A stretch of DNA of 64,000 bases from Pelodera strongyloides. Taxonomy: Eukaryota > Nematoda > Chromadorea > Rhabditida > Rhabditidae. Below the pieces are notes generated by a model. That model made no database searches and was not told the origin of the DNA. It saw nothing but the letters and a program-made list of their open reading frames with translations. The DNA is taken from NCBI GenBank assembly GCA_036852015.1, contig JAANDG010000211.1, positions 124,001 through 188,000 on the forward strand, written 5' to 3'. The translations under genes were made by a program, and so were the position numbers. Positions 12,361 to 61,986 of the stretch are shown here, one piece after another (the stretch's first letter is position 1; the number at the start of each line of letters is the position of its first letter).

Positions 12361-15278
12361 GAAAGAGAAAGTATGGAAATAGTTATGCTGTTTTTTTTAG
12401 GTTTGTGGACATGACACGCCGTGACATGCGAGAATGGCTGAGAAAGACTGTTGATCAGGAAAAAGATGTAAGATTAGCTATTTTAATTTTATTCTTGCCA
12501 ATGATTAATGCTCGGTTCTTTGCTCGGGCGCACGAGTAATTAGCCAATTAGAGGTAAATATGTGGTATGGACTTGAATGTGCTACTGTGTTGCAAGGGTG
12601 TGTTACTGTGGGCGGCGGGTTACGGTATCTCTAAGACATTTCCTGGCAATTACGTGGTATACAATCTTGGATGAATAACTGATAATTAACTGATAATCAC
12701 CAACCAAATTTACACTTTTGAGGTGAGTGGTTTTCAGTTAATTCGTGTTTACGGCTTATCTTCCCAGAATAACTGCAGTAGTAATGCATCGCCCCAACTT
12801 TTAGAATTGCATCAAAATTAAGGTGATGTGTCATATAACTCAATTTATGTACTTTCATGATTGTCCTTATATGCGCACGTACTTCCTGTCGCGAGGCGCG
12901 AGGTCCTGATTTTTTTTTAGCATTTAACATGTGCAAAGAACTAAGAACTACACAGCAGCATGCAAGATCGTAGCTTGTGATGTTATGTGGGAATTATGAA
13001 TAATAGTCGCTTAGATAATTAATCACATCCACGCTGCTATACTGCGTAAAATATAGAAAGATAAGCCGGAAGCACTAAGCACACGTAGCTTATTTGTGTG
13101 GTTTTAATCCGTTTTTTTTAATGTTTTCCAGAGTAAGGAGGATTGTAGGGTAGGTGGATTTCTTAAATTATTATAGTGTATTATTAGCGTATTAAACGTA
13201 AACTATTAAATCGCCGATCCCCCGCAAGTTGAGATTTGAGAGTTGTTTTGATATGGATTTGGTGATTAGAATATAATATGGTGATATGAATAGTGAGTCC
13301 CAAAATACGGGGAGATTTTTTAGGTTTGGACTGTCCGCGTATAGTACCACCAGAAGAATAAGCACCTGCTGAGCTTTTAGATCTCACAAGTTTCTCTCTC
13401 TCTCTCTCTCTAAAAAAGATAGGACAAGACTTTATATATCTTTATTGTGAAACCACCTAGTGATCGATGTTTCGGATACAAATCCATAAGCAGGGAAAAA
13501 GTGGGCAAATCAATGCGTCATGGTAAAAAAACCTCAAACTTGAGTAACTAAACCAGTATCGTATCCCTGTTTTAGGACTGGTATAAACACGTGAGGCCCG
13601 AAGAGGATGGTGACGGATATATGTACACACAAATGCCGAGTATTTTATTCGGAATGATTGAAGATACGGTATGTTGATGATGAACAGATTACTGTAGCAT
13701 ATCTGTATGTCCTACATGTTTGAAGCGCCCGTTGTGTTAATGTCCGTCAAACTTTTACTTTTCATTTGTTGCGTATGCGTGAAATTAATAACGAATAATG
13801 TGTTATGTGTAGTTGTAGCTTGTAGCGTAGGAACTTTGTGGGGCAAAGTCTTCCTCCTCCGGCGGTGAGTTATTGGATTAGTTTGTGTACTAGTAACGAC
13901 TTAAGCCTAATCCTAAGTATCTCGAAGATAGACCGTTTTCGCTTTTTAACCTAACCTAGTATGTGTGGTCGAATATAAACGACTTTTTTAAGGTTGCGCT
14001 TTGCAAAGAGATCAGCACTGAGCTGATTCCCCGTGTGATCAACGTGAGCATTGAGGAGTTTATTGGATTTGCTGATCATTATAGAGGTAGGAAAAGGGAG
14101 AAGGTGAAGGTTTGAACTGCTTAGAAGAAACTACGATATTTCTTATACGGTATGCTATTCACATGCATGGGCCAACATGTACGGTATAGTTTATTTGTGC
14201 TAGTGTGGTGGATCGGTAATGGTTTTCTTGTCGCAATGTCGCAATAGTAGATCGCGAGCTCACTGTCTTATGTTTTTGTGTGAACTTGGTTCTCTGTTCG
14301 TCAGATCAAATGTTGAAAAGAACTATTCAAATTCAGATGCTGCCATGGCGTATAGAGGAAAGTACTTTGAAGATCGGAGCCGCTTCAAGGAATTTACGTC
14401 AACAATGGTTTGTTTGTTTTTGTTTTTTATTTCGCACCCGTTACCACGTGCATTACAATGTAAGAGCATTGCGGAACTGAAACTACATGTGCGTGTCTGT
14501 TTTTGGTCCGCTGGGTAGATAGCGATAGCGAGGTAACTAGGTAACTAGGTAACTTCCATTTGGATTTTTGTGACCTTCTAATAATTACTCCCTTTTTTTT
14601 AGATTGCAATTGCCAACAACCTGCACACATGTGTTGAGAACACCGACAAATATATGAAACACATTCGATTGTCTATGGAAGGTGAGATTAACATTAATAT
14701 TTGGTTTATCAAAATGAAGTACTATGTACTACAGTACTACTTTATTCATCAGATACAGCATTACTCAAGTGTATGGAACGAGATTGGAGAACAACAGTAA
14801 AGAAAAAATCAGTACTTGAGAGTTAAAGCGAAATACCGGCCGCTTTTTGAAACACATCGAGTACACCAGCGTTCTTATGCAGCTCATGCAAATGAGCATA
14901 AATTAGAATAAAAGATCGAGCTAAATTCGAGCAACTTTACATAAATACGTAAGAATTCAGTTGGCCATGATGTGTTTCAAAAACCGGTTGGTATTTCGCT
15001 TTAAAGCGAATGTCAAGCCTGATTCACAGATATTCTATAACACGCTGTCACAGCTACCGTAGTTTACACAATTTCTCTCGCGCTCTCCTCTTTTTCTTTG
15101 CTGACTTAAACAAATTTCTCTCGCGCCCTCCTCTTTTTCTTTGCTGTCTAACAGCAAACGGTCCTGCGGCAGAAAATAGTTCTGATTTTGTCCACACGAC
15201 TCGAATCCCATACTGAAGGAGTTTTTTGGAGGGGTTTGAAATTGTTTTTCTTCTTACATGAAAGTTTTTGTTTATTTT

Positions 15279-48876: not shown

Positions 48877-48989
48877 CTGAAAACAAGGAACAGCAGAACA
48901 AAAACGGCAAAGTACTAACTCTCGCTCTTTATCCTACTTCTAACTAAACCCCAAAACATAATAACTAAATCTCAGATGCATCTCGACTG

Positions 48990-50830
48990 TCAGCGTTCAC
49001 CCTCAAACATCAACGATCACCCTCAAACAATGCCAAAAACTCAAGCTGCCCCAATGCCAATTCCTCGAGAAGCGGCGGTTCTCGGGGTTGAGCATGAGAG
49101 CACCCCAAGTCTCAACATATTTCTAAGCTCAAACCCATGCGACGTTCACCCTCAAACAATGCCAAAAACTCAAGCTGCTCAAATGCCAATTCCTCGAGAA
49201 GCGGCGGTTCTCGGGGTTGAATATGGGAGCACCCCAAGTCTCAATATATTTCTAAGCTCAAACCCATGCGACGTTCACCCTCAAACAATGCCAAAAACTC
49301 AAGCTGCCCCAATGCCAATTCCTCGAGAAGCGGCGGTTCTCGGGGTTGAACATGGGAGCACCCCAAGTCTCAATATCTCGAGAAGCGGCGGTTCTCGGGG
49401 TTGAATATGTGAGCACCCCAAGTCTCAATATATTTCTAAGCTCAAACCCATGCGACGTTCACCCTCAAACAATGCCAAAAACTCAACTGCCCCAATGCAA
49501 TTCCTCGAGAAGCGGCGGTTCTCGGGGTTGAACATGGGAGCACCCCAAGTCTCAATATAGTTCTAAGCTCAAACCCATGCGACGTTCACCCTCAAACAAT
49601 GCCAAAAACTCAAGCTGCCCCAATGCCAATTCCTCGAGAAGCGGCGGTTCTCGGGGTTGAATATGTGAGCACCCCAAGTCTCAATATATTTCTAAGCTCA
49701 GACCCATGCGACGTTCACCCTCAAGCAATGCCAAAACCTCAAGCTGCTCAAATGACAATTCGTCGAGAAGCGGCGGTTCTCGGGGTTGAATATGGGAGCA
49801 CCCCAAGTCTCAATATATTTCTAAGCTCAAACCCATGCGACGTTCACCCTCAAACAATGCCAAAAACTCAAGCTGCCCCAATGCCAATTCCTCGAGAAGC
49901 GGCGGTTCTCGGGGTTGAACATGGGAGCACCCCAAGTCTCAATATATTTCTAAGCTCAAACCTATGCGACGTTCACCCTCAAACAATGCCAAAAACTCAA
50001 GCTGCTCAAATGCCAATTCCTCGAGAAGCGGCGGTTCTCGGGGTTGAATATGGGAGCACCCCCTCGGGGTTGAATATGGGAGCACCCCAAGTCTCAATAT
50101 ATGTTTAAGCTCAAACCCATGCGACGTTCACCCTCAAACAATGCCAAAACCTCAAGCTGCTCAAATGCCAATTCGTCGAGAAGCGGCGGTTCTCGGGGTT
50201 GAACATGGGAGCACCCCAAGTCTCAATATAGTTCTAAGCTCAAACCCATGCGACGTTCACCCTCAAACAATGCCAAAAACTCAAGCTGCCCCAATGCCAA
50301 TTCCTCGAGAAGCGGCGGTTCTCGGGGTTGAACATGGGAGCACCCCAAGTCTCAATATAGTTCTAAGCTCAAACCCATGCGCCGTTCACCCTCAAACAAT
50401 GCCAAAAACTCAAGCTGCCCCAGTGCCAATTCCTCGAGAAGCGGCGGTTCTCGGGGTTGAACAAGGGAGCAGCCCAAGTCTCAATATAGTTTTAAGCTCA
50501 AACCCATGCGACGTTCACCCTCAAACAATTCCGAAAACTCAAGCTGCTCAAATGTCAATTCCTCGAGAAGCGGCGGTTCTCGGGGTTGAATATGGGAGCA
50601 CCCCAAGTCTCAATATATTTCTAAGCTCAAACCCATGCGACGTTCACCCTCAAACAATGTCAAAAACTCAAGCTGCTCCAATGCCAATTCCTCGAGAAGC
50701 GGCGGTTCTCGGGGTTGAACAAGGGAGCGCCCCAAGTCTCAACATATTTCTAAGCTTAAACAAATACGAAGTTCACCCTCAAACAATGCCTAAAACTCTA
50801 GCTGCTCCAAGGCCCCTCAAAATATGCCTA
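48990..50830. repeat. 129-bp minisatellite, about 14 units
   Basis: Units recur every 129 bases (for example GACGTTCACCC at 49141, 49270, 49708, 49837, 49966), with some truncated units near 49370-49530 and 50050. Every unit contains CCTCGAGAA-GCGGCGG-TTCTCGGGG, a 9-bp stem with a 7-base loop. The 43-codon plus-strand frame is open through many units, but differences between units mostly change the amino acid, so coding is unlikely. Confidence 0.93.
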
Positions 50831-50849
50831 ACCTCAAACTCCTAATACT

Positions 50850-51278
50850 TTCAATGAAGTGATGCAATTACGAAACGTACCGGATTTGTTGATCTGCTTC
50901 CTCCTTTCTACGATTCTACGTGGAGTTGGGGAACAAACGAAATGAAGCATGCTTGCATTCCAGAGGCAACTGAAAGTTCAACAGTAAAAGAAGTCCACTG
51001 AAAGTGGAACCCAAATACGACGATAGTTTTCATTCAGCACAGTTTATATGTTAAATACGTCCATTTTCATAAGTCATTTATTTATTACCAGAATGGATCA
51101 GATGTTAGTGTACGTTTTGTATTCTAGGTATGTAGTTGATGTTAGTGTACTTTTTGTATTATACGTATGTAGTTGGACGTTGGACGCTTGTGTGTATCTC
51201 TGTGTGTTAGCGTGAGTGTGTCTGTTTGTGTGCGTGTTTAAGTGTGCGTTCGTAGGTCGACCGAGACACCAAAACTAG
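50850..51278. other. Spacer with GT-rich tract, no gene
   Basis: A GTGTGTCTG/GTGTGCGTG-like tract at 51185-51255 precedes the inverted repeat. Confidence 0.5.
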
Positions 51279-53207
51279 GCATTTGGCCGGGAGCCAAAAA
51301 AGCATTTCGTCTCAAGGAGAAGTGCTGAATACTGTAGGATTTGCTACGAATGGTGTACCAAACAATAAATTATTTTTCTTGAACTGATTTGCGACTTTTT
51401 CTTCATTAAATAGTGTTTATTTTATATTCCCTCACATATATATTTGTCAGTTTGTCATTATCATGTTCTTTATGTGCTTTAGTGCCTGTTCAGTGCTGGC
51501 TGGCTTTGTCCCATTCTTCTTGAAAGCTTTTAGCCGTGATTATTATTATTTTTGTACGGATGAAGGTTCACGCTTACTATGAACCATGTTTGCAGAATGC
51601 AATTCTTCTGCTATGTACCACGAGCGGTCGAAGACGTTCTCGGACCAATGCAGCAGGCAAGAACTTGGAGGGTGAGTACAATTTCCTACACTGAATATTT
51701 TGTTGCTCAAATTTTCTGTCTGTCAATGTCACTGTCCTATCTAAGTAAAATAGACATTACATTCTTTCACTTAAGTTATTTAACACGCGAAACACCTTAT
51801 GCAATCTGATTTTCCATTGTAAACCAGTTGTTAATTCTGTCCACCCTCAGGTTGAAGCCAAGCGATGACGACACGGCTTTGGGGAGTAATTATAAGAATA
51901 ACGCGGCACAAATTTAAGGACAGGTTCGTATATTAAATGTAAAAGCCCTAATTATCAGAAGCAGGATACACGTTACCTCTCTGGTTTTTTTTCCTAACGG
52001 TTTCACGGCCCATATCGACTATCCATAAAGATGCCTCATGAAGCGAAGCTACTTGAATAAAAACTCCGCAATCCACAGCTCAGTACAGCTTGGGTAAAAT
52101 TATTAATTGTGCTTGGCTTCAGGTGACGGAGAACAGGATACGCGGGGCAGATCATTGGAAAATTCGACCGCAATGTACCAAAGAAATCTTTTTTGTTTTG
52201 GGAAGCCAATTTCACACTCTTTTACATTATCAACAGTTTGCTTGTTGTCTGCACATATAAATAAATAAATGTGTGTTAAATAAATACAAATGACTTTATT
52301 GTTTCTATTGTTGACAATTATTCATTTTCCTTGCCGGCGCTTTGTGCAATAAATCCTGCCCGCAGAGAAGAAAATAAAGTCAGTGATTGTTCTCGATATT
52401 CGTTCGGATGACGACGGTCTAAAAAAAAACGACTTGGTTATTCTGATCATTGAGTTGATGTTGAACTATCAGAAATTTCTTACACAAACCGTAGGTAACC
52501 GTCATCCCACCATCGTGCCTTTCTTTATAAACGCGCGCAACATTAACGTAATTTTGGACCCAAGCAAAGTTTTGGACCCAAGCAAAGCAACGTAATTTTG
52601 GACCCAAAGCCGTGTCGTCATCGCTTGGCTTCAACCTGAGGGTGGACAGAATTAACAACTGGTTTACAATGGAAAATCAGATTGCATAAGGTGTTTCGCG
52701 TGTTAAATAACTTAAGTGAAAGAATGTAATGTCTATTTTACTTAGATAGGACAGTGACATTGACAGACAGAAAATTTGAGCAACAAAATATTCAGTGTAG
52801 GAAATTGTACTCACCCTCCAAGTTCTTGCCTGCTGCATTGGTCCGAGAACGTCTACGACCGCTCGTGGTACATAGCAGAAGAATTGCATTCTGCAAACAT
52901 GGTTCATAGTAAGCGTGAACCTTCATCCGTACAAAAATAATAATAATCACGGCTAAAAGCTTTCAAGAAGAATGGGACAAATCCAGCCAGCACTGAACAG
53001 GCACTAAAGCACATAAAGAACATGATAATGACAAACTGACAAATATATATGTGAGGGAATATAAAATAAACACTATTTAATGAAGAAAAAGTCGCAAATC
53101 AGTTCAAGAAAAATAATTTATTGTTTGGTACACCATTCGTAGCAAATCCTACAGTATTCTGCACTTCTCCTTGAGACGAAATGCTTTTTTGGCTCCCGGC
53201 CAAATGC
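51279..53207. mobile_element. 605-bp inverted-repeat pair around 720 bp
   Basis: Left arm 51279-51883 and right arm 52603-53207 are reverse complements of equal length. Differences are rare: one in the region coding VEDVL against VVDVL, and one in GGCTGGCTTTG against GGCTGGATTTG. Outer ends are GCATTTGGCCGGGAGCC and its complement. Each arm carries an exon-like piece (MNHVCRMQFFCYVPRAV...RTWR before GGTGAGT). No transposase is seen, and no clear target duplication. A nonautonomous element with long terminal inverted repeats or a very young inverted duplication both fit. Confidence 0.85.
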
Positions 53208-56760: not shown

Positions 56761-57937
56761 CCTCGCTGCACTGGTAAAAATAGGGGTGTATCACCGACAC
56801 TGTCTCGCTTGATAAGAGTTGGGCCCGCAACCTTGCCCATCTTGCCCTGAGTCCCTTACGGACCCCCTTACGGACTATGGGACCCTGTGCTCTATTCATG
56901 TGTACGGTAGATCAGAATACCTGGCTTTTCGGTTCTGTGCGTTCAAATTTGTGTACTTTGACATCTTATCAGAACGCGAGACCCCTAAGAACGAACTGAA
57001 AAGCCTTTCTCGGACATATAAATTTTCTTTTCCTTCTCTGTATTTACTGATGCAATATATTTGTGTGCAACATGGTAACATGATTCAAGAGGACAACATT
57101 TAAAGAGATGAATCAAACCTAATGTATAACGATGACGGATGAACGTCGCCACTGAGCGTGTACAGTCATAAATTGTTCTCTTTTACTGCTTGCACAGCTA
57201 TGCAAGAAACTATGCATCCGATTCGTGGAAAAATTTCTTAATGATTACAGCTCGTTAGAGTCTTTTCTGCCGATCTTATTACCAGGCGGACGAAGAGCAC
57301 TTGCGGGCTCTTCTCCGACTTGAGGTAGGATCGGCCTACGGCGTTCGCTGAAAAGTTGCCATTCCTAATTTAAAATCCTGAAACGTAAAAAAAGTAATGT
57401 CGGAGCTGTTTATCTTGCTACAAAACTGAGATTCCTCTCTCCTTTAACACCCGAAAGGCCATAATAGGGCTTTTGTAGAGGATCGGGGCCATATCGGGCC
57501 TTGTTCCCGATATGGACCGGATTGGTTTTCACTTTCCCGTGGCCTTCACTAACCTTCTAAATTAACAAAAAAAAATTGTTGAAACAGTGGTAAGTAGTAC
57601 GCCTATAAAAATTACTTGTATAAAAATGCAATTTAGCACACTAAAAATTTTTTTTTTTTAATTTAACGTACCCAAACAGCACCGAACGCGTGGATTTTGG
57701 ACCCGCCTACCAATCCGTAGCTGTTTTCTCGGGGAGGGCTCGCTAGGCTCGCGGCTCGCTGGATGAGTAATTTTTGCTCCAGTGACGCTGAGCTCTACTG
57801 TTTTTTTTAAGCTTTTGTGTGTATCTTGTTTGGTTTGGCTGTTTGCTTATCATAGTCTGCTCCTCGCTTCGCCTTGGTTAACATGTTCAGGAAGACCAGG
57901 TTCAAAATCCGTTGCTCAGTTACACGGCTTCTTTTTA
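56761..57937. other. Intergenic, no gene recognised
   Basis: Holds a single GGGGCCATATCGGGCC fragment near 57483, related to the G-rich repeats, and no supported coding region. Confidence 0.5.
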
Positions 57938-58084
57938 TATATAAATACTTTATTCACACATAAAAACATGCAAAATAAAGTGCTCTGAAGAGCAGGAAGA
58001 CGAAAAGGTAGGTTTTTATACCCGAAGACAAACAGTAAGAAACAAAACACGAACAATGAGAGAATGTTAGATAATATTATGAGA

Positions 58085-60955
58085 TCAAGCACCAATGTGA
58101 AGGTCTGCCTGGTCACTCAACTCAACGAGATCTAGCGCGTCAATTTTCGACTTGAACGATTCTATCGTTGAGCTGCGGACAGTCGCTTCGTCAAGGAGAT
58201 TCCAAATTCTAGTGACTCGATGTTTAAAAAAAGATTGGGTTTGTAACGTAGAAACCCTTTCCTGCCGTATATATAAAGAGTTACCATCTCTCCTCTGTCT
58301 ACCACCTAAAATGAACATACTATCGAGCACTCGGTGTTTATGCAACCCAAAACCTCGGACAATCTTAAAACATTCAACGAGATCGTACACAATTCTCCTG
58401 TGTTGTAGAGATTTTAGACTGAACACTGTTAACCGTTCCTCTTTAGTGAAGTTATGATACATTTCATAATCGATTTTATTGAGTGCAATTTTAGTGAAAC
58501 GATTTTGCACTCGTTCTACCAAGAGGATTTCGTTTTTAGAATAAGGAGACCAAACAGTAGAAGCGTATTCCAAGATTGGACGGACATAAGAAGTATAACT
58601 TTTACGATAAACAGAGAGGTTTGGCTGAACAATGGATTTTAGGATACGATTTGCAGTTACCGTTGCAGACCGGACTATTTTCTCAATATGCGAACTGAAA
58701 CTTAAGTCCGATGAGACCATAATACCGAGATCGCGAATAATATTTGTTTTAGGGATGACAGAGCCATTGATTTCCAGAGGGAATTCCCACTGATCACCAA
58801 GTGCAAGGTGCTGGCATTTTGGCTCGGAAATCTTCATTTTCCAAGTGTTTGACCAATTCAGTAAATTTTCCAGCTCCTGACACATTTGATGATATGCAAC
58901 AAGAGGGTCAGCCTTTTCCATCACACGTGAGAGCTTTACATCATCAGCGTACATCACGATGGAGCTTCCCCCCAAGCCGCACAAATCAATGTCGTTAATA
59001 TAAATTAGGAAAAGAATTGGTCCAAGAATGCTGCCTTGTGGAACACCACTAGAACATGGGAGAGATTTTGAGACAGCATTCTTGTACCTCACCTGGAAAG
59101 TACGACCAGACAAATAAGACGAAATCCACTCACAAACTAGAGAAGAAATACCATACATACTAAGCTTATGCAACAAAAAACGATGATTAACAATATCGAA
59201 AGCCTTCGCAAAGTCAATATAAACACAATCCACTTGTTCTCCGTTTTCTTTAGCCTCAAACCATTCGCTCATGCACGTTAAAAGTTGAGTTGTGGTGCTT
59301 CTTCCTTTGAGGAAGCCGAACTGGTTCGAGGAAAAGAGGTCTCGAGAAAACATGTGATCCATAATAGAGGTCTTTAAGACATTTTCAAAAACCTTACAAA
59401 TGGAAGAAGTTAAAGAAATAGGACGATAATTTTCGATTTGAGTATGAGGTGGTTTTTTAGGCAACGGAGCAACAAACGCGTGCTTCCATTCTTCAGGCAA
59501 GACAGAGAGGAGGAGAGACTTGTTGAAAAGCTTAGCTAAAATGGGGACTAGAACAATACGCAGATTTTTTATAACAAACGAGGAAATACCGTCCGGCGTT
59601 TGCGAGTGCTTATTTGGCAGTTCACGAATGGCAGAGTCAACCATCGATTCAGTAATCAAAAAATTGCACTGCGCAGGGTCAGGATCGGGAAGAGAAAACG
59701 GGGGAATAGGAGAACCATCATCGGGCACATAAACAGAGTGAAAGAAATTTGCAAAGAGATTAGAAATCTTAGTAGGATCAGAGACGTGAACAGTGGAAGA
59801 TCCGGCGGGGACAAAAAATGATTGAGAGACAGCTGCGGGGTTTTTGCTTTTCGAGTTTAAATAGGAAAAGAATTTTTTGGGATCATTCGCATTTACCGCT
59901 CGCCTCTCGATATTTGCCTCGTAACTTCTGCACATCTTACGATATTTTTTGTCGGCAACTGCAAAACGCTCCTGTCCACCGGGCTGGTCTATGTTAGAAA
60001 AAGCTTTTTCCATACTTAACTTAGCCCAGCCTATGTGGTGAGGAAGTTTATTAGAGCAAGGCTTTTGAGGAATGAGAGAGATAGAGGATTTGATGCACGT
60101 AGCAAGGAAAACGTAATCCTCTTGTATGGTTGAATTTCTCGTACAAAAGGAACGGAAATCAGTGTCAGCGATTTTACTACTAATACAAATGAAATCGTCC
60201 GGGGTTAAGCGTTGAAAATTACCAGAAACTTGCTCGATAGTAGATTCCAGCACAAGGTCGAAGACAAGGGAGAGGTGATCGCTCTGTGCAATGGGAGCCA
60301 CAGTTTGAATGTTCTCCACAACGTCGAAACTGTCTGCAACAACAACATCAAGAATTTTTAAAGTATCTCGGAAAGTAGGCTGCTTATTCAAAAGAAACAT
60401 ATTGTTGCAAGAAAGAAAATCTCTGAACCTTTCAGCAGGCCTACCAGAAAACGAAAATTGATTACAAAATTGAACATTAAAGTTTAGGTCACCAAGAATA
60501 ACATTTGTATCACGATCTGTAAGATAAGTTTCTATACAATCCAAAATTTCATCTGTGTTATTTATGGAAATATCAGGAGGTCGATAACAGAGTACTATGC
60601 GAATACTAATAGAAGCATGAATGTCTACAACACATAAATTACAATTGCTAACGAAACCAGAGAAAATTTCATTTGAAGAAAAACGCTTATCAATGAGGAG
60701 ACAAATGCCGGCGCCTCTCACCTTACCACAATCTGTTTGTGGTCTGTCATTTCTGTAAATTACATAATTTCCACATGGGTCTAGTAAAGAAGAACAAACA
60801 TTCGAGTCGAGCCAAGTCTCACAGATAGCAATAACCGAGTATTCCACTCTGCGGGTCATGGTCTGTATTACGTAGCGTCTGTTGTGACTGCGAGACAAAA
60901 TTGAATGGGCATTAAAACTGATACACGACAGACGCTTGACTTTGGGAGCGGCCAC
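58085..60955 (-). CDS. LINE ORF2: endonuclease and reverse transcriptase
   Basis: 956 codons without a stop. N-terminal APE-type endonuclease: LSCISFNAHS, CETWL (about residue 45), GDLNFN (about 153), SDHLSL (about 228). Reverse transcriptase: YRPISLTS, FGFLKGRSTTTQLL, YIDFAKAFD, GVPQGSILGP, and the catalytic YADD near residue 668. No ATG precedes the endonuclease: the frame is open from 61006, and the nearest start-like codon is GTG at 60955. It lies in the -1 frame relative to ORF1, so frameshifting or reinitiation is likely. Confidence 0.93.
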   Translation of the reverse strand: MAAPKVKRLSCISFNAHSILSRSHNRRYVIQTMTRRVEYSVIAICETWLDSNVCSSLLDPCGNYVIYRNDRPQTDCGKVRGAGICLLIDKRFSSNEIFSGFVSNCNLCVVDIHASISIRIVLCYRPPDISINNTDEILDCIETYLTDRDTNVILGDLNFNVQFCNQFSFSGRPAERFRDFLSCNNMFLLNKQPTFRDTLKILDVVVADSFDVVENIQTVAPIAQSDHLSLVFDLVLESTIEQVSGNFQRLTPDDFICISSKIADTDFRSFCTRNSTIQEDYVFLATCIKSSISLIPQKPCSNKLPHHIGWAKLSMEKAFSNIDQPGGQERFAVADKKYRKMCRSYEANIERRAVNANDPKKFFSYLNSKSKNPAAVSQSFFVPAGSSTVHVSDPTKISNLFANFFHSVYVPDDGSPIPPFSLPDPDPAQCNFLITESMVDSAIRELPNKHSQTPDGISSFVIKNLRIVLVPILAKLFNKSLLLSVLPEEWKHAFVAPLPKKPPHTQIENYRPISLTSSICKVFENVLKTSIMDHMFSRDLFSSNQFGFLKGRSTTTQLLTCMSEWFEAKENGEQVDCVYIDFAKAFDIVNHRFLLHKLSMYGISSLVCEWISSYLSGRTFQVRYKNAVSKSLPCSSGVPQGSILGPILFLIYINDIDLCGLGGSSIVMYADDVKLSRVMEKADPLVAYHQMCQELENLLNWSNTWKMKISEPKCQHLALGDQWEFPLEINGSVIPKTNIIRDLGIMVSSDLSFSSHIEKIVRSATVTANRILKSIVQPNLSVYRKSYTSYVRPILEYASTVWSPYSKNEILLVERVQNRFTKIALNKIDYEMYHNFTKEERLTVFSLKSLQHRRIVYDLVECFKIVRGFGLHKHRVLDSMFILGGRQRRDGNSLYIRQERVSTLQTQSFFKHRVTRIWNLLDEATVRSSTIESFKSKIDALDLVELSDQADLHIGA

Positions 60956-60966
60956 CTTGGGACCAA

Positions 60967-61737
60967 CTAGACGGGGTGTGGCCCTCCCGGCGGGTGAGGA
61001 AAATCCTCATCCGTCAGGACGGAACCCCGGCTGTTTGGCGATTCCAAGACGGCGCTGTTGAAAGGATCATACGCCGGCACTGTCAAATCATTGTCCTCTG
61101 GGACGTAAGTCTGCAGAGTGTGCCCAAGTACTACACTAGAAATTGGACTCACAACATCAGCTGTCTGATGTGGAGCCGGGGTGTTGGGCAAACTAGAGGC
61201 CTGCACTGGAGTATGGGACTTAGGGCTCACTGGCGTGCGGACCTTTTTGGGCTGAGGGGTTTTACGGTGGGCCTTCTGCTTGGCCCAGTGGGGAGGGTGA
61301 TCGTTCATGTAGGATGAACGATCAGCCTCGTCAAGAGAAGGCCTACAGTACAACCAATTGTAAGAACGACCCAACAACGAAGAATACAAACGAGGAGTAT
61401 TAATAAAACGAATGAATTCACGGGCATGATGAGAAGACTCAAGTACTACTTTTAAAGGGCGAGGGGAATTTGGGTCGTAAGGACCCATACGAAAAGCATC
61501 GATGAGAAGGCCATCCGATCGCATAAGGCCAAGGAGATAATAAATACGAGATATTTCGGCACCACGTCTCATGGCAGAGGGGCATACACCAAATTCGGGG
61601 AGATTGAACAGGACAGCACTGTGCTCCTGTTCGTAAGGACGGTAAGCGGCCGTATACTGGAGGAATACATACGGATTTAACACATTCGGGTCGCACAGCG
61701 GGAGAGCGACGTCTGGAACGAATCGCTTGATCTTCAT
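60967..61737 (-). CDS. LINE ORF1 protein
   Basis: From ATG at 61735-61737 (MKIKRFVPDVALPL) to TAG at 60967, 256 residues. It has no zinc knuckle or clear RRM; the second half is rich in Pro, Lys and Ser (PHWAKQKAHRKTPQPKKVRT), suitable for nucleic-acid binding. The frame also opens upstream over the GTCGTGTGGTG repeats, but those are probably 5' UTR. Its end overlaps the ORF2 frame by about 40 bases. Confidence 0.8.
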   Translation of the reverse strand: MKIKRFVPDVALPLCDPNVLNPYVFLQYTAAYRPYEQEHSAVLFNLPEFGVCPSAMRRGAEISRIYYLLGLMRSDGLLIDAFRMGPYDPNSPRPLKVVLESSHHAREFIRFINTPRLYSSLLGRSYNWLYCRPSLDEADRSSYMNDHPPHWAKQKAHRKTPQPKKVRTPVSPKSHTPVQASSLPNTPAPHQTADVVSPISSVVLGHTLQTYVPEDNDLTVPAYDPFNSAVLESPNSRGSVLTDEDFPHPPGGPHPV

Positions 61738-61964
61738 CGCGAAAAACCACACGACGAGCACACCACCAACGGGCTCACACACGACGAGCACACCACACGA
61801 CGGGCTCACCACACGACGACACAGGGGAGAGAGGGCACGTCAGGCACACGGAATAACAAGGCCACGGCACACTTCTTATCGGCTCTAATAATAGATAGGG
61901 AGGTCGAGCTCTTCTTTCCAGGAAACGCCTGTAAACATGAGGCCCCAAGAGAGAGATTGGGGTC

Positions 61965-61986
61965 CTCAAACTTGGGTAATTAAACC
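61965..61986 (-). other. Nematode SL1 spliced-leader sequence, 22/22
   Basis: On the minus strand the bases begin GGTTTAATTACCC and end TTTGAG, identical over all 22 positions to the SL1 leader known from C. elegans and other nematodes. It is followed by GACCCC, not GT, so it is a mature trans-spliced 5' end, not an SL RNA gene. It is the first sequence of the LINE. Confidence 0.93.

Follow-up and report, generated by a model that had tools for sequence, protein, structure and literature searches.

The SL1-headed LINE in the window

The window analysed here is a stretch of 64,000 nucleotides (G000:C211:124001-188000) from the worm's own genome, whose assembly comprises 160 Mb in 1171 contigs. 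It carries on its minus strand a retroelement copy, placed in a family here called A, with the following parts:

57936..61986, minus strand: whole family A LINE copy, about 4.05 kb; 3′ limit approximate, 5′ end taken from the genome-wide comparison of copies
61965..61986, minus strand: SL1 spliced leader forming the 5′ terminus of the LINE, 22/22; other insertions start likewise
61941..61964, minus strand: 5′UTR hairpin CCCCAA ... TTGGGG directly 3′ of SL1, from a fold of the window copy and alignment
61929..61935, minus strand: TTTACAG, splice-acceptor-like 5′UTR motif, from alignment
60967..61737, minus strand: ORF1, 256 aa counted from an ATG at 61737, with homologues in the ORF1s of families B, C and D
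58085..60955, minus strand: ORF2, 956 aa, open, endonuclease and reverse transcriptase, from domain search

Domain search of ORF2 returned an RVT_1 match (1.3e-31) and, N-terminal to this reverse transcriptase, an Exo_endo_phos_2 match (3.1e-9, residues 118-229), identifying the element as a non-LTR retrotransposon (LINE) with an apurinic-type endonuclease. Assignment to the PAO-type LTR elements was rejected, since endonuclease plus reverse transcriptase in ORF2 is a LINE architecture and no LTR was present among the direct repeats at the element. Comparison of ORF2 residues 1-500 with a protein collection gave six remote matches, which were uninformative. The window copy has a short TATAT tail after AATAAAG, and its 3′ end GTGTGAATAAAGTATTTATAT is common to eight other copies; this tail shared by nine copies, together with matches at C12 and C145 that begin inside the element (5′ truncation), is dispersal typical of LINEs. 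ORF2 is also open in at least two near-complete family A copies elsewhere (C776, 99%, and C401, 90%) among the 48 of 1400 candidates that were scored.

The exact SL1 sequence GGTTTAATTACCCAAGTTTGAG occupies positions 61965-61986 of the minus strand (22/22) and is the only exact copy in the window; 100 shuffles of the sequence yielded no SL1 match at up to three mismatches. Site search and open reading frames thus bear out the original prediction of a perfect SL1 followed directly by LINE sequence. Arrays of SL1 RNA genes were located at C857, C26 and C644 (by Rfam SL1 matches, none of the 32 reaching the gathering score), the C857 array being accompanied by U2, U5 and 5S genes, so the host very likely makes SL1.

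Three further features of the window were recorded. A second SL1-like site with two mismatches lies at 13533-13554 (minus strand) and is followed by GTTTTTTTACC. Positions 51279-51883 and 52603-53207 form a perfect 605-nt inverted repeat with a spacer of 719 nt, and tandem repeats at 48929-50855, mostly spaced by 129 nt, contain long in-frame open stretches with a 43-aa unit.

SL1 as the 5′ end of family A copies across the genome

The first 600 nt of the element, including SL1, were searched against the whole assembly. Among the family A-type records (the family and close relatives reaching SL1), all 21 of the 5′ ends read start within SL1, at nt 1 in 12 records, nt 2 in one, nt 3 in five, and nt 4, nt 5 and nt 8 in one each. 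The upstream flanks of 20 of these 21 copies were compared (1000 nt, same strand only, C104 left out) and share nothing at the junction except for the duplicated locus C584 = C1007; the only other hits were three weak matches, all more than 450 nt from the junction. The proposal that SL1 is the exact 5′ terminus of the LINE therefore holds for the genomic copies, and neither of the two findings named in advance as fatal to it was made in family A: no conserved sequence upstream of SL1 is common to the copies, and SL1 is not an abutting piece of host flank, given that the same joint recurs in different surroundings. An origin by chance, or by a LINE landing beside an SL1 gene fragment, might be entertained on the grounds that SL1 is not rare (460 sites with at most one mismatch in the assembly); the shuffles, the recurrent 5′ ends and the flank comparison rule it out, as the same joint stands beside different flanks in dozens of insertions, and the probability that we leave to it is negligible.

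The exact SL1s of the assembly give a corresponding picture. There are 22 that lack a following GT, and 16 of them stand at the very start of a LINE from these families (11 in family A and its relatives, five in family B). Another 15 are followed by GTC or GTG, five of which are LINE 5′ ends (C40 of the family A sister group, one of family D and three of family C). In an alignment of 10 of the 21 family A-type copies from three lineages, from which C698 with its one SL1 substitution was left out, SL1 nt 5-22 is invariant while the following stretch differs at many positions, a contrast that fits either renewal or constraint of the leader. Single changes within SL1 were seen as one substitution each in C698 (family A) and C344 (family D) and one lost base in C794 (family B).

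The stem of the hairpin that follows SL1 is kept in the family A sister group and in C152, where the CT-rich loop is longer. Beyond the hairpin, all 10 aligned family A-type copies carry TTTNCAG (N being A, G or C), which looks like a splice acceptor; its use would remove an upstream ATG (element nt 49) ahead of the ORF1 ATG (nt 250). As the family A SL1 joint this motif was rejected: none of the exact SL1s listed for the assembly is followed by GCG, so that TTTNCAG, if used, has left no visible mark in the RNAs that retrotransposed.

Target-site duplications, proposed to lie immediately outside SL1, did not emerge above the mismatched-pair control in nine family A copies, among which short ones are possible. 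The longest words shared by the two ends of a copy were 4-7 nt; in mismatched pairs the mean was 5.4 and the maximum 9. Ten stretches had been fetched for this comparison (C638 had none), of which C140 and C971 missed the 3′ end, so that eight and the window copy were used.

Four LINE families with SL1 at the 5′ end

The 160 Mb assembly contains four LINE families, A to D, with related ORFs that start with SL1 in different surroundings. The joint reads SL1/GACCCC in family A, with SL1/GTCCCC in its sister group and a third lineage at C152; it is SL1/CAGGTACC in family B, SL1/GTGTCAACG in family C and SL1/GTGCCGCTG in family D. Over the aligned parts, families B, C and D are 28-35% identical to family A in ORF1 and 32-57% in ORF2. 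The sequence after SL1 is unlike among A, B and C/D, C and D being alike by eye near the start of ORF1, and copies with a 22/22 SL1 exist in all four families.

The 5′ ends that were read and extend to the junction number 39, and 38 of them have SL1 or at least a 3′ part (A 21/21, B 12/12, C 3/3, D 2/3); the figures are 37 of 38 when C584/C1007 is counted once. The exception is the family D copy C46, which starts at the junction (within 1 nt) without SL1; the family B copy C576, counted as having a 3′ part, keeps just the last 6 nt. The upstream flanks in families B to D differ on reading, the computed flank comparison being that of family A. Left out of the counts were C943, whose match goes no further than element nt 88, the limit of the retrieved stretch; C174, a 68-nt match from SL1 nt 12; C242 of family C, which starts at SL1 nt 3; and the matches that do not reach the junction, namely C12 and C145 in the family A search, C501 and C101 in the family B search, and C1156, C282, C29 and again C501. 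The follow-up that had been suggested, a look for SL1 at other LINE copies, thus reveals a feature of four families and not a one-off.

Junction variants in family B

The 12 family B copies display three kinds of joint: SL1/CAGGTACC in nine, SL1/GTACC in two, and SL1 separated from GTACC by 67 nt in one. The first two are the pair expected if splicing were to use the tandem acceptors NAG/CAG/. The SL1/GTACC copies, C228 and C794, differ from the SL1/CAG copies C21, C122 and C53 by 0-0.31% over about 640 nt. This suggests that the family B joint is usable as a 3′ splice site, at any rate in copies with CAG directly after SL1; alternatively, SL1/GTACC could be a 3-nt deletion of SL1/CAGGTACC.

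In the third kind of joint, at C49, SL1 is followed by the 67-nt segment GCTTTTTTC...GTGTGAG and then by GTACC. This segment was found once more, at C189, with one mismatch, where TTATTTCAG precedes and GTTCGT follows it; apart from the segment itself, C189 has no match to the family B LINE. With TTTCAG before it and GT after it, the C189 segment is bounded like an exon, making it a candidate exon to judge by its borders, and the C49 joint falls, by motif alone, at the 3′ splice-site motif TTTCAG of this source. C49 is most simply explained by trans-splicing of SL1 to a host exon, which would then have been joined to CAG/GTACC at the 5′ end of the LINE. No unspliced source of the family A joint was found.

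Copy C7 has two full SL1s flanking 16 nt of other DNA, a spacer with no second occurrence in the assembly. Such a doublet would be expected to arise when transcription started outside a copy, upstream of it, and a new SL1 was joined at an AG shortly before the one already present. Neither for the C7 doublet nor for C49, with its 67 nt, does the assembly contain a parent copy. C49 shares an insertion with C576 and not with C228 or C794, and the C7 doublet groups with C421; because C228/C794, C49 and C7 are thus grouped with different relatives, the putative marks of splicing lie in three sub-lineages.

These joints also bear on the possibility that the reverse transcriptase jumped from the 5′ end of the LINE RNA onto SL1 RNA. 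Other LINEs are known for such jumps to snRNAs, the snRNA-L1 chimaeras being the example. A jump onto SL1 RNA would be expected to bring in the SL RNA intron or to leave variable joints, whereas the joint is the end of the 22-nt exon in every SL1-bearing copy read, and at C49 an exon-like segment with two splice-like borders stands between SL1 and the LINE. We regard a jump onto SL1 RNA as highly improbable, and trans-splicing as by far the best account of the SL1 terminus. At the C49 joint to GTACC, with AGGT on both sides, a microhomology jump is formally possible and would need to meet the exon border by chance.

Other SL1-bearing sequences in the assembly

Several other kinds of sequence with SL1 were noted. 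Eight loci (L001, L007, L010, L011, L013, L019, L022 and L023) are short repeats whose similarity runs from at or near SL1 (locus position 1501, SL1 orientation). They have CTGAWGATG...CGAAACG...AATAAA after SL1, resembling a hammerhead core, and some are palindromic by eye; no Rfam hammerhead match up to E 0.1 was obtained in these eight loci. Another repeat (L002, L003, L005, L014-L017, L020 and L030) has its SL1 some 280 nt inside the usual right end and is conserved up to 1.5 kb upstream as well, with 77-95% identity between copies; it could be an element that uses SL1 as a start site.

L004, L021 and L024 are dispersed copies resembling SL1 RNA genes (SL1/GTTAGCACTAACCCCGAGAC) with about 600 nt in common, and tandem repeats lie at L026-L029 (G000:C22:447869-448242) and at C153:109122-109416, with units of about 88 nt that in most cases include an exact SL1. 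SL1 heads sequences in varied contexts at L070, L072, L076, L109, L110, L117, L119 and L123, with ATG directly after it at L072; these are perhaps retrocopies of trans-spliced host mRNAs. At L069 (G000:C53), of family B, the flank repeats tagccttgcaatatctattaccca beside SL1-like letters, as if the 5′ joint had been formed by microhomology or a template switch.

Probable origin and proposed renewal of the SL1 terminus

From the SL1 5′ ends of several families with their differing flanks, the alternative junctions, the doublet and the exon-like insert, we infer splicing as the cause, along with the sequence of steps, the ends of the RNAs and the relative weight of inheritance and renewal described here. 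We consider it likely that the full-length RNA of these LINE families begins with the SL1 of the host, acquired by trans-splicing and occasionally renewed. A LINE transcript would at some point have been trans-spliced to SL1 like a host mRNA, and reverse transcription that ran the whole way, or stopped just a few nt short of the 5′ end, would leave a new copy with SL1 as its first 22 nt. In DNA, the junction of SL1 and element would then be a usable 3′ splice site. Transcripts that enter a copy from its upstream flank could acquire SL1 anew at this junction or at an AG just before it; alternatively, SL1 could be spliced to a host exon, and this exon in turn to the junction. RNAs re-spliced in these ways would retrotranspose as well. 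Most cycles probably just transmit SL1 along with the copy, and it would be renewed only sometimes.

How often renewal takes place may be judged from the family B joints. A CAG acceptor should be preferred over GAG, and yet nine of the 12 family B copies keep SL1/CAG, which disfavours regular re-splicing, as this would give SL1/GTACC. The mixture of junctions and the persistence of SL1/CAG therefore favour inheritance with occasional renewal. For family A, in which no alternative junction was seen, renewal is suggested by analogy with family B. The original prediction, that a trans-spliced LINE RNA had been reverse transcribed to its very end, is upheld as regards the SL1 terminus, which extends to whole families; the addition of SL1 to the window copy in its last cycle is conjectural, as the parent may already have carried it. 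The translation advantage and the promoter role also suggested there for SL1 are putative. Its question of a one-off event or a regular step of the life cycle is answered in part: SL1 is a standing feature of these LINE families, and renewal in each cycle is disfavoured by SL1/CAG persisting beside SL1/GTACC.

Several of the same data could be read as a single ancestral capture of SL1, whose 22 nt are now kept by selection as a transcription start or 5′UTR without trans-splicing today. The family A joint lies at one position in all 21 read ends, and SL1/CAG persists in family B though CAG looks the better acceptor. SL1 might also be retained as a promoter element, as it is reportedly an internal promoter element of the SL RNA gene in Ascaris. 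Against a single capture, the C7 doublet, the SL1-exon-LINE arrangement of C49 and the two SL1/GTACC copies are most simply products of later splicing in different sub-lineages, and SL1 is 22/22 in copies of all four families though the sequence following it has diverged in A, B and C/D. We consider a single capture unlikely, if clearly less so than a jump onto SL1 RNA, and prefer a trans-spliced terminus with occasional renewal.

A more far-reaching version of renewal may be proposed. The nematode acceptor consensus is TTTCAG, which is resembled by the last bases of SL1, TTTGAG, so that SL1 itself might re-create an acceptor. TTTGAG in the DNA would then be the 3′ splice site for the next SL1, and a copy transcribed from outside would receive a fresh, exact and capped SL1 start. 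This self-regenerating end is a tentative idea that we are inclined to doubt. If true, the LINE would leave the making of its 5′ terminus to host splicing and would escape loss or mutation of its 5′ end, incidentally being able to pick up host first exons.

Relation to known systems and significance

Spliced-leader tags on retroelements are already published for flatworms and Brugia, and the general idea is known. In Brugia malayi, SL1s within 1 kb of PAO LTR elements (60 of the 120 non-array SL1s) were explained by trans-splicing and integration (PMC7181701). The Pelodera LINEs share with these the integration of SL1 at retroelements of a nematode; the Brugia elements are of the LTR type, with SL1 counted when it is within 1 kb of either end, unlike the exact terminal joint, putative alternative acceptors and apparent exon capture seen here, as far as the consulted part of that report extends (PMC7181701). 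In flatworms, partial leaders were recorded at 597 discarded loci, most of them in LTR and LINE elements (PMC12582326), and for Schistosoma mansoni six SL-bearing transposable elements have been described (PMC5832876), with the same proposal of integrated transcripts of trans-spliced retrotransposons. The flatworm loci were noted as discarded and assembly chimaeras were offered as an alternative in Schistosoma; the parts of the two reports drawn on here contain no family-wide fixed 5′ end or junction analysis (PMC12582326, PMC5832876).

In dinoflagellate retrogenes, according to the portion of the source used, DinoSL relics are integrated with the cDNA and re-spliced, and tandem relics mark repeated cycles (PMC12014239). 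The likeness lies in a leader integrated with cDNA, a re-spliced relic and tandem relics; the difference is that host genes and not an autonomous element are concerned, and that the DinoSL relic is cut inside the leader (PMC12014239). A pattern of this kind, SL1 followed by a TTTGAG relic, was rejected for the present assembly, in which the sole exact SL1 followed by T reads SL1/TTTAGAG. Among the annotated repeats of trans-spliced repetitive genes in Heterodera glycines, one of the LINE/CR1 type is the most frequent, again a case of nematode LINE sequence in SL-bearing transcripts, at the RNA level only and with no SL in genomic copies in the sections consulted (PMC6362198). In the open-licence literature that we searched, LINE families with SL1 as a constant 5′ terminus were nowhere described, nor were junction variants or captured exons that would indicate re-splicing.

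A LINE copy starts at whatever point reverse transcription stopped, and full-length RNA must be made from it; here the host supplies the 5′ end as an exon that has its own cap pathway. The genome keeps an apparent record of splicing in the choice of junction, the doublet and the captured exon, a record that would amount to a genomic read-out of the acceptors used by the trans-spliceosome on retrotransposing RNA. These families are a natural case for asking whether SL1 in DNA acts as an acceptor or a promoter, and the captured 67-nt segment suggests a route by which a LINE may move host 5′ exons.
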